Source: Thermaerobacter subterraneus DSM 13965 (lineage in GTDB: Bacteria; Bacillota; Sulfobacillia; Thermaerobacterales; Thermaerobacteraceae). Taken from it: DNA of 64,000 nucleotides. Made by a program: the position numbers and the translations under genes. The DNA is taken from the NCBI RefSeq assembly GCF_000183545.2, contig NZ_JH976535.1, forward strand, positions 1,293,890-1,357,889, read 5' to 3'. Positions 30,173-35,414 of this stretch are shown here, one piece after another (the stretch's first letter is position 1; each line of letters opens with the position of its first letter). The notes beneath the pieces are model-generated. The model searched no databases, was not told where the DNA came from, and saw only the letters and a list, made by a program, of their open reading frames with translations.

Positions 30173-30208
30173 GCCCGGGGCGGGGACCGGCGGGTCCCCG
30201 CCCCGGGC
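30173..30208. terminator. Bidirectional terminator between aceB and the thioredoxin-like gene
   Basis: A 16-bp perfect stem (GCCCGGGGCGGGGACC with its complement) around a 4-nt loop, between two converging genes. On the minus strand it is followed by TTGTTCG; on the plus strand by GCTGTTGG. Position and strength suit a shared terminator. Confidence 0.7.
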
Positions 30209-30290: not shown

Positions 30291-31157
30291 TCAGGAGGAC
30301 TTGTCGCTCCCGGCATCTCCCGCCGGTGCGGCCGTGCCGGCCTCGGCGGTGCTTTCCGCAGCGGGCTTCTCACCCGCGACGGCCGCACCGCCCTGGGCCT
30401 CAGGGGTCGCGGCTTGCTGCTTGGCCCGCTCCGCCTTGAGCCGGGCCGCCTTCTCCAGGGCCGCCTGCACCCGCGCGTCCCTGTCGCCGGCGGCCGCAGC
30501 CCGCGGCCGCCCTGCGGCCGCCGGACCCGCCTGGTCGCCGCCGGCCCCTTCGCCCTGGGCGGTCGCTGCCTTACCGGCGCTCCCGCCTTCGCCGGCCGCG
30601 GCCTTCTGCTTCGCGCGTTCGGCCTTGAGCCGGGCCGCCTTCTCCAGGGCGGCCTTGATCTTGGCGTCCTTGTCGCCGGCGGCGCCCCCCGCGTCGCCCC
30701 CCGCAGCGCCCCCGGGCGCATCGGACTCGTCCGTGGGGACGGACGTCTTCACGTCCTCGACGAACTTGGCCAGAAACACGTCCAGCTGCCGGCGGACGTT
30801 GTACGCGATCAGTTCGGGGTCGGAGTTGACGATCAGCGGCTTCATGGTGGTGATCAGCTTGCCGTTGCGGAAGAGGGCGACCCCCGGCACGTGGGCCAGG
30901 TCGTAGGTCTGGTTGATGGCCCGGCGCCGGTGGTATTCCTGGATCAGGTCGCCGTACTCGTCCACGTTGATCCGGACCAGCTTGACCTCGGGATGCCGCT
31001 GGGCCTGTTCGGCCAGGGCCCGGGTGAAGAACTCCGTGTCCTTCCCGGGCCGCCACAATTCCACCAGGACCTGCCCCTTGTGCTGCAGGACCTCCTGCTC
31101 AAAACGGTCGCGGGGAACCTCCACGGGCCGGGTGAGAGATGGGGTCGCAGTCGCCAT
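30291..31157 (-). CDS. Thioredoxin-fold protein lacking CxxC, with duplicated helical repeat
   Basis: A 288-residue protein. Residues ~8-125 have thioredoxin-fold spacing (QVLVELWRPGKD, KLVRINVDEYGDL, VPGVALFRNGKL), but the redox motif WCxxC is replaced by WRPGKD (35-40), so it cannot be a disulfide oxidoreductase of the usual type. From about residue 140 the chain is Ala/Gly-rich and carries the motif ALEKAARLKAERAKQ twice (about 162-185 and 225-248), likely basic amphipathic helices. ATG at 31157, with AAGGAG 11 nt upstream. Possibly a binding or scaffold protein; function unknown. A TACAAT hexamer lies at 31213-31208. Confidence 0.75.
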   Translation of the reverse strand: MATATPSLTRPVEVPRDRFEQEVLQHKGQVLVELWRPGKDTEFFTRALAEQAQRHPEVKLVRINVDEYGDLIQEYHRRRAINQTYDLAHVPGVALFRNGKLITTMKPLIVNSDPELIAYNVRRQLDVFLAKFVEDVKTSVPTDESDAPGGAAGGDAGGAAGDKDAKIKAALEKAARLKAERAKQKAAAGEGGSAGKAATAQGEGAGGDQAGPAAAGRPRAAAAGDRDARVQAALEKAARLKAERAKQQAATPEAQGGAAVAGEKPAAESTAEAGTAAPAGDAGSDKSS

Positions 31158-31207
31158 CGCCCTGCACGCTCCTTCGTCCCGAGCAATCGACATGACTACC
31201 AGGAAAC

Positions 31208-31297: not shown

Positions 31298-31852
31298 GTG
31301 CGCGTCCAGTTGACGCCGGAGGCCGCGGCCTTTGCGGCGCGCGAGCTGGCGCGGCGGCCGGAACTGAACTACACCCTCACCGTGGAAGCGTTCCTGGTCT
31401 CGGGCTGCTGTTCGCCGAACCTGCCTCCCGAGGTGCACCTGGGGCCTCCGCCCAGCGGTGACTTCCGGGCCGTGACGGTGCCCCTGGCGGTCCCCGGCGG
31501 CGGGCCCGCCGGCCCGGGCTGGGAATCCGACCGCGGCCTCGCCCCAGGCCGTGGGCCGCTCCCGGCGGGCGACGGTGCCGCGGGGCCGGTGGCCGCCCGG
31601 GCGGCAGGCGCGGCGGCCGGGTCGCCCCAGCCGGCGGTGCCGGCAGCGGAGGTATACATTGACCCGCTGGTGGATGAGTTCGTCCGGGAGTGGTACGGGG
31701 AAGGTGGGCAGGAGCAGGCCCGGCGAGCGGTGCTGCGGATCGACCTGGCCCGGTACGGCGAGCGGGAAGAACTGACGGTCCGGCCCTGGCCTCCCCGGGC
31801 CGAAGAGGCCGGAGAAGGCGGGGTGACCCTTGCGGAACGTCCCGTCCCGTAA
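31298..31852 (+). CDS. CC-motif protein, HesB/IscA-related in appearance
   Basis: A 184-residue protein; GTG start 6 nt after GGGGAGGTGAC. The first ~55 residues (LTPEAAAFAARELARR then VSGCCSP with Cys37-Cys38 and PEVHLG) resemble small proteins of the HesB-like CC/selenocysteine-motif group. An Ala/Gly/Pro linker (about 70-115) then leads to a C-terminal part with EVYIDPLVDEFVREW. Iron-sulfur or persulfide binding at the CC pair is possible but unproven. It is divergent from the thioredoxin-like gene by 140 nt. Confidence 0.6.
   Translation: MRVQLTPEAAAFAARELARRPELNYTLTVEAFLVSGCCSPNLPPEVHLGPPPSGDFRAVTVPLAVPGGGPAGPGWESDRGLAPGRGPLPAGDGAAGPVAARAAGAAAGSPQPAVPAAEVYIDPLVDEFVREWYGEGGQEQARRAVLRIDLARYGEREELTVRPWPPRAEEAGEGGVTLAERPVP

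Positions 31853-32860: not shown

Positions 32861-35414
<2,554 letters not shown>

Follow-up and report, generated by a model that had tools for sequence, protein, structure and literature searches.

The gene at 30291..31157 on the minus strand of a 64,000-nucleotide stretch of DNA from Thermaerobacter subterraneus DSM 13965 (the whole of which we call the window) probably encodes a non-redox pseudo-thioredoxin adaptor, in which a groove of the domain would hold one protein partner and helices of the tail another, the two contacts forming one joint reading. The 288-residue product is a cysteine-less protein with a predicted thioredoxin-fold domain and a tail that carries two copies of a helical motif, and the combination of the predicted fold, the missing redox cysteines and the repeated basic helix makes a binding protein more likely than an oxidoreductase. 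We do not file the Thermaerobacter protein as a thioredoxin, since it has no CxxC site and scores below the cut-off of the thioredoxin model. Below we describe the gene, the domain, the tail and the family to which the protein belongs, and weigh the functions that gene order in its relatives brings to mind.

The gene and its surroundings

The start codon at 31157 is preceded, as read from the sequence, by AAGGAG 11 nt upstream. The mechanically called ORF start at 31193 would add one cysteine to the product and still leave it without a pair. Among the congeners (n = 4), the domain and both tail motifs differ mainly at the third codon positions of the 288-residue frame, a bias that argues against the long antisense ORFs over 30291-31157. 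A terminator-like stem of 16 pairs (30173..30208, minus strand) lies approximately 80 nt 3′ of the stop codon; it is a consensus match only, one such stem being found against a mean of 0.6 in shuffled sequence. In Thermaerobacter the gene stands alone, outside any motA-motB operon, and a malate synthase gene (Pfam match) converges on it. The divergent neighbor (window 31298-31852, plus strand) encodes 184 residues with a GCCSPN motif, is HesB/IscA-like by eye only and has no match in Pfam. Further along the plus strand, window 33606-35414 encodes a fusion of a Cys/Met-metabolism PLP enzyme, by eye of the O-acetylhomoserine sulfhydrylase type, with a C-terminal CoA_binding_2 domain.

A divergent thioredoxin fold

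Residues 1-148 (30714..31157, minus strand), to judge from an AlphaFold2 model, VIA-align and the family profile, are predicted to adopt a divergent thioredoxin fold. Single-sequence AlphaFold2 modeling of these residues gave a mean pLDDT of 72.9 and a pTM of 0.69 for the best model (51.9-72.9 for the mean pLDDT across the five models). Compared with solved structures, Foldseek retrieves thioredoxins at E of about 1e-7, thioredoxins and thioredoxin fusions making up most of the 50 matches listed, and the best VIA-align match is likewise a thioredoxin (Z 12.5, 2.1 Å over 102 residues); in both searches the absence of other families among the matches listed excludes nothing. The first-pass annotation had called the protein a thioredoxin-fold protein, and the predicted model, Foldseek and VIA-align, with Z up to 12.5, bear this out; the structure prediction it had suggested yields the thioredoxin-fold domain and two tail helices. 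For the full-length protein, again modeled from a single sequence, the overall pTM falls to 0.41, with linkers of low confidence.

Set beside the thioredoxins (PF00085, TIGR01068), the domain shares the predicted fold, the order of strands and helices and a proline before the strand that follows the third helix, and it differs in lacking CxxC, in a site that is one residue shorter, in approximately 10 extra residues before the proline and in a long last helix (residues 114-138). It also differs in score, the whole protein reaching 16.8 bits and the domain 19.8 bits against Pfam Thioredoxin (PF00085), both below the cut-off of 23.5. Identity of the domain among congeners is 91-99%. The same genome codes elsewhere for an ordinary thioredoxin with WCGPC.

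The lost CxxC site and the retained proline

The site of the lost WCxxC is occupied by WRPGKD (residues 35-40; 31038..31055, minus strand), as placed by alignment with true thioredoxins. The WCGPC of four such thioredoxins falls opposite GKDT plus a gap, and a pairwise match agrees, so that both cysteine positions are gone. The claim made at first reading, that WRPGKD marks an active site without redox cysteines, thus stands, with no cysteine in the 288 residues; a functional pair elsewhere in the fold was looked for and none is present. Disulfide reductase activity is not expected of a protein without cysteines. Phosducin, HyaE/HoxO and KaiB are cysteine-less thioredoxin-type folds that serve in binding and not in redox chemistry, a use that our protein may share; none of the three was among the matches in Pfam, NCBIfam or PDB-sequence searches.

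Pro91 (30885..30887, minus strand) lies at the position of the thioredoxin cis-proline in the alignment, and all 18 family members, as aligned, have a proline there. Cysteine is absent from the CxxC positions of every member (0/18, of which 17 were aligned with four thioredoxins, a few of them N-terminally cut for this purpose, and the G082 copy, cut by a contig end, was read separately), and three of the 18 have one cysteine elsewhere. Across the family, conservation is at least 90% at R97, G99, T103, Q124 and F128. At the old CxxC site acidic residues are common in the clade linked to motA (described below), and no residue is common to the whole family.

Two helical motifs in a drifting tail

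The tail carries two copies of a 26-residue unit, at residues 162-187 (30597..30674, minus strand; predicted helix 160-188) and 225-250 (30408..30485, minus strand; predicted helix 223-249), within which ALEKAARLKAERAKQ occurs twice, at residues 170-184 and 233-247. The copies agree at 21 of 26 residues, 64 of 78 nucleotides and 15 of 26 codons, too much divergence for a recent duplication of the DNA. Within the tail (138 residues) the longest stretch repeated exactly spans 16 residues; in 5000 shuffles of the tail the maximum was 12, reached once. Both motifs are basic, with net charges of +5 and +3, and the motif helix does not stand out for amphipathicity, its value being attained by 12926 and 8656 of 20000 shuffles of its own sequence. 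A basic helical repeat present twice in a Gly/Ala-rich C-terminal half had been noticed at the outset, and the 21/26 unit and the predicted helices uphold that observation.

The two tail motifs look selected, since they are conserved among the four Thermaerobacter genomes while the linkers drift. Against each of three congeners, motif identity is 81-100%, and the changed codons of the motifs, summed over both motifs and the three comparisons, comprise 39 synonymous and 13 non-synonymous changes. The Ala/Gly-rich linker between them (residues 188-224; 30486..30596, minus strand) is 41, 66 and 72% identical to the three congeners, counted over residues 188-223, and the variable C-terminal tail (residues 251-288; 30294..30407, minus strand) is 29, 29 and 79% identical.

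Basic helical repeats of this kind had led the first-pass annotation to a tie with respiratory-complex subunits, and this tie finds no backing. In its own genome, at E up to 10, a profile of the repeat matched no protein besides the product of 30291-31157. Across 154 genomes of the class it gave eight matches, all in the four Thermaerobacter genomes (two each), plus two weak ones in G153 and G023 (E 0.004 and 0.006) that we attribute to chance, one containing an internal stop and the other covering 11 of 31 positions; 398 genomes of the phylum returned only the same eight Thermaerobacter matches. The repeat was not found in 14 more distant family members, and searched alone against PDB chains it gave one match, at E 0.75, which we dismissed. 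NuoC of the same genome, located and read, is without such a tail, respiratory subunits other than NuoC being covered by the repeat profile search. A link of this motif to respiratory complexes therefore finds no support in the own genome, the 154 class genomes or the 398 phylum genomes. No other gene of the genome carries the repeat, as the early note had allowed, yet the orthologues of all four congeners conserve it; and of the proposed partner or scaffold role, the preference for a binding protein over an oxidoreductase survives while the respiratory-complex partner does not.

A cysteine-less family within one class

With a profile of the domain, 18 of the 154 class genomes contain a family member, at 69-224 bits, and the next match drops to 44.8 bits; the lower matches that were read in this search are CxxC thioredoxins. 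The members are spread over eight taxonomic families of the class, and in a tree of 17 members and four thioredoxins the branch separating the two groups has support of 100/99. Thirteen sequences from outside the genus have complete C-termini; after the last helix, 12 of these have [YF]DP and one has FDA, followed in seven of the 13 by QKN. At this position Thermaerobacter has FVEDVKTSVP and the motif tail instead.

No Pfam or NCBIfam model reaches its cut-off for any of the 18 members, and the matches below cut-off are mainly to thioredoxin, the best PF00085 score being 23.3 bits (G016) against the cut-off of 23.5. A known family name was sought for the protein in Pfam, NCBIfam, PHROGs and, by sequence, the PDB, and only thioredoxin models below cut-off came forward; DUF5662, TIM21 and hits seen in a single member were weaker than these and were dismissed. 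In the 398-genome phylum sample, where at most nine candidates per genome were scored, so that misses are possible, we found five members, all of the same class and none outside it, together with 12 matches at 28.6-34.4 bits. Three of these 12 were read: L100 is a CxxC thioredoxin, and L099 and L101 are thioredoxin domains fused to a reductase. The latter two (L099, G347:C22; L101, G494:C45; match from position 1501 on) come from other members of the phylum and are thioredoxin-reductase-like by eye; the CxxC site of their C-terminal thioredoxin domain reads SPTSQAS or SPTSEAS, again without cysteines. A plasmid search gave no family match, and a scan of genome contigs, in which records near the window were possibly left out, returned two ordinary thioredoxins. 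Literature searches on thioredoxin-like proteins, motA operons and Thermaerobacter, mostly at the level of listings, brought nothing on the family to our notice, and together with the family libraries they indicate that it is probably undescribed.

Gene order in relatives

Nine of the 18 members lie upstream of motA, directly or across thrC, and all nine belong to one clade. In G014, G039 and G091, which represent three genera and three taxonomic families, the gene is 76, 75 and 45 nt 5′ of motA, which is followed by motB, in likeness to MotA/MotB stator operons (the distances rest on mechanical ORF starts); the query gene differs in standing outside any such operon. In all six members from one taxonomic family (f43, GTDB-type), the gene either shares 4 nt with thrC or stops 2-3 nt short of it, gaps that again rest on mechanical starts, with thrC assigned above the NCBIfam cut-off in 6/6; a MotA_N match follows after another 2.2-2.8 kb, without change of strand or contig. 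An intervening thrB was confirmed in G085 and seen by eye in G087 and G089. In the six f43 genomes examined (L072-L075, L077 and L078), motA is thus 3′ of thrC, and of thrB where checked; we know of no earlier instance of motA downstream of thrC/thrB. Several genomes encode, immediately 5′ of the family gene, a small protein that ends in an ERR...A[VL]A-like sequence (L072 9112-9417; L075 5773-6087; L077 10719-11114; L078 10537-11046; L026 7350-7805), and the two copies tested had no Pfam match.

Elsewhere the surroundings vary. In G084 the contig with the family gene also carries motA, at a distance of approximately 10 kb, and in G016 and all four Thermaerobacter genomes motA is far from the family gene or on another contig. 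In G005 a GGDEF protein gene comes next, 35 nt downstream; in G006 the family gene is followed by dapF and then by a GGDEF protein gene. A GABA-type aminotransferase gene lies approximately 0.1 kb away in G039 and approximately 3 kb away in G085. The nine motA-linked members and G084 form one clade (support 100/99), so that the linkage counts as a single ancestral block preserved along long branches and not as nine independent observations.

A proposed adaptor and its alternatives

According to the reading that we favor, the thioredoxin fold would have been kept while CxxC was lost, and a protein partner would bind, without disulfide chemistry, in the groove that surrounds the retained proline. 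This groove partner would be common to the family. In Thermaerobacter, where a flexible tail presenting two copies of the basic helical motif appears to have replaced the C-terminal [YF]-D-P segment, the paired motifs would engage a second one. Because two conserved copies sit in drifting linkers, the tail motifs would most likely bind a repeated or oligomeric second partner. The position of the gene before motA in one clade of relatives makes the MotA/MotB stator, or some process encoded next to it, a possible ancestral partner; the thrC or GABA aminotransferase gene in the same neighborhood means that motility is not singled out.

The most specific lead, drawn from that one ancestral gene block and not amounting to a result, is a stator role: the family would bind MotA (or MotB) in the cytoplasm and tune motor assembly or torque, possibly with c-di-GMP, the Thermaerobacter gene having been kept after the block broke up. 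We regard this as possible and rather unlikely. It fits the nine members upstream of motA, three at 45-76 nt and six across thrC, and the GGDEF genes of G005 and G006; the T. subterraneus genome, moreover, has motA, motB (by eye) and FliG. Weighing against it, the linkage is one block in one clade, motA is nearby in none of the four genomes of the query genus, G005, G006 and G082 have the family gene and no MotA_N match, and of the 119 class genomes in which MotA_N is matched, 104 are without a family member. FliG does not discriminate: 17 of the 18 genomes with a family member have it, but so do 133 of the 154 class genomes overall. T. marianensis is described as non-motile yet carrying flagellar genes (PMC3035304). 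The fuller version, in which the family, found so far within one class, is a cytoplasmic flagellar-stator adaptor that Thermaerobacter rewired by losing [YF]-D-P and gaining two docking motifs, is doubtful. That the family instead serves a step of amino-acid biosynthesis, with motA as a bystander, seems quite unlikely to us: thrC is overlapped or nearly touched in all six f43 members, dapF adjoins the gene in G006 and the aminotransferase gene is near in G039 and G085, but G014, G039 and G091 have no thrC between the gene and motA, amino-acid genes are common enough for their recurrence to be chance, and in Thermaerobacter the gene is flanked by malate synthase and by a divergent gene that Pfam does not match.

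Two further readings concern the domain itself. Another chemistry could have replaced CxxC, with the fold binding a metal, a thiol compound or a nucleotide; the conservation of R97, G99, T103, Q124 and F128 and the acidic residues that are common at the former CxxC site among the motA-linked members could be taken this way, but that site has no family-wide residue, and we hold such an enzyme to be improbable. A decaying, functionless thioredoxin paralogue might be expected to look as divergent as this protein does, which reaches the cut-off of none of the Pfam and NCBIfam models that it matches; the high identity of the congeneric domains, whose differences fall mainly at third codon positions, the occurrence in eight taxonomic families and the invariant proline disfavor decay to the point that we give it hardly any credence.

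The pseudo-thioredoxin adaptor that we favor would add to the thioredoxin-like proteins a clearly bounded family that is unnamed in the family libraries searched, and for which motA, thrC and GGDEF genes provide the genomic lead. It may also offer an example of a catalytic fold that has seemingly turned into a binding module and then, within one thermophilic genus, gained repeated linear motifs.
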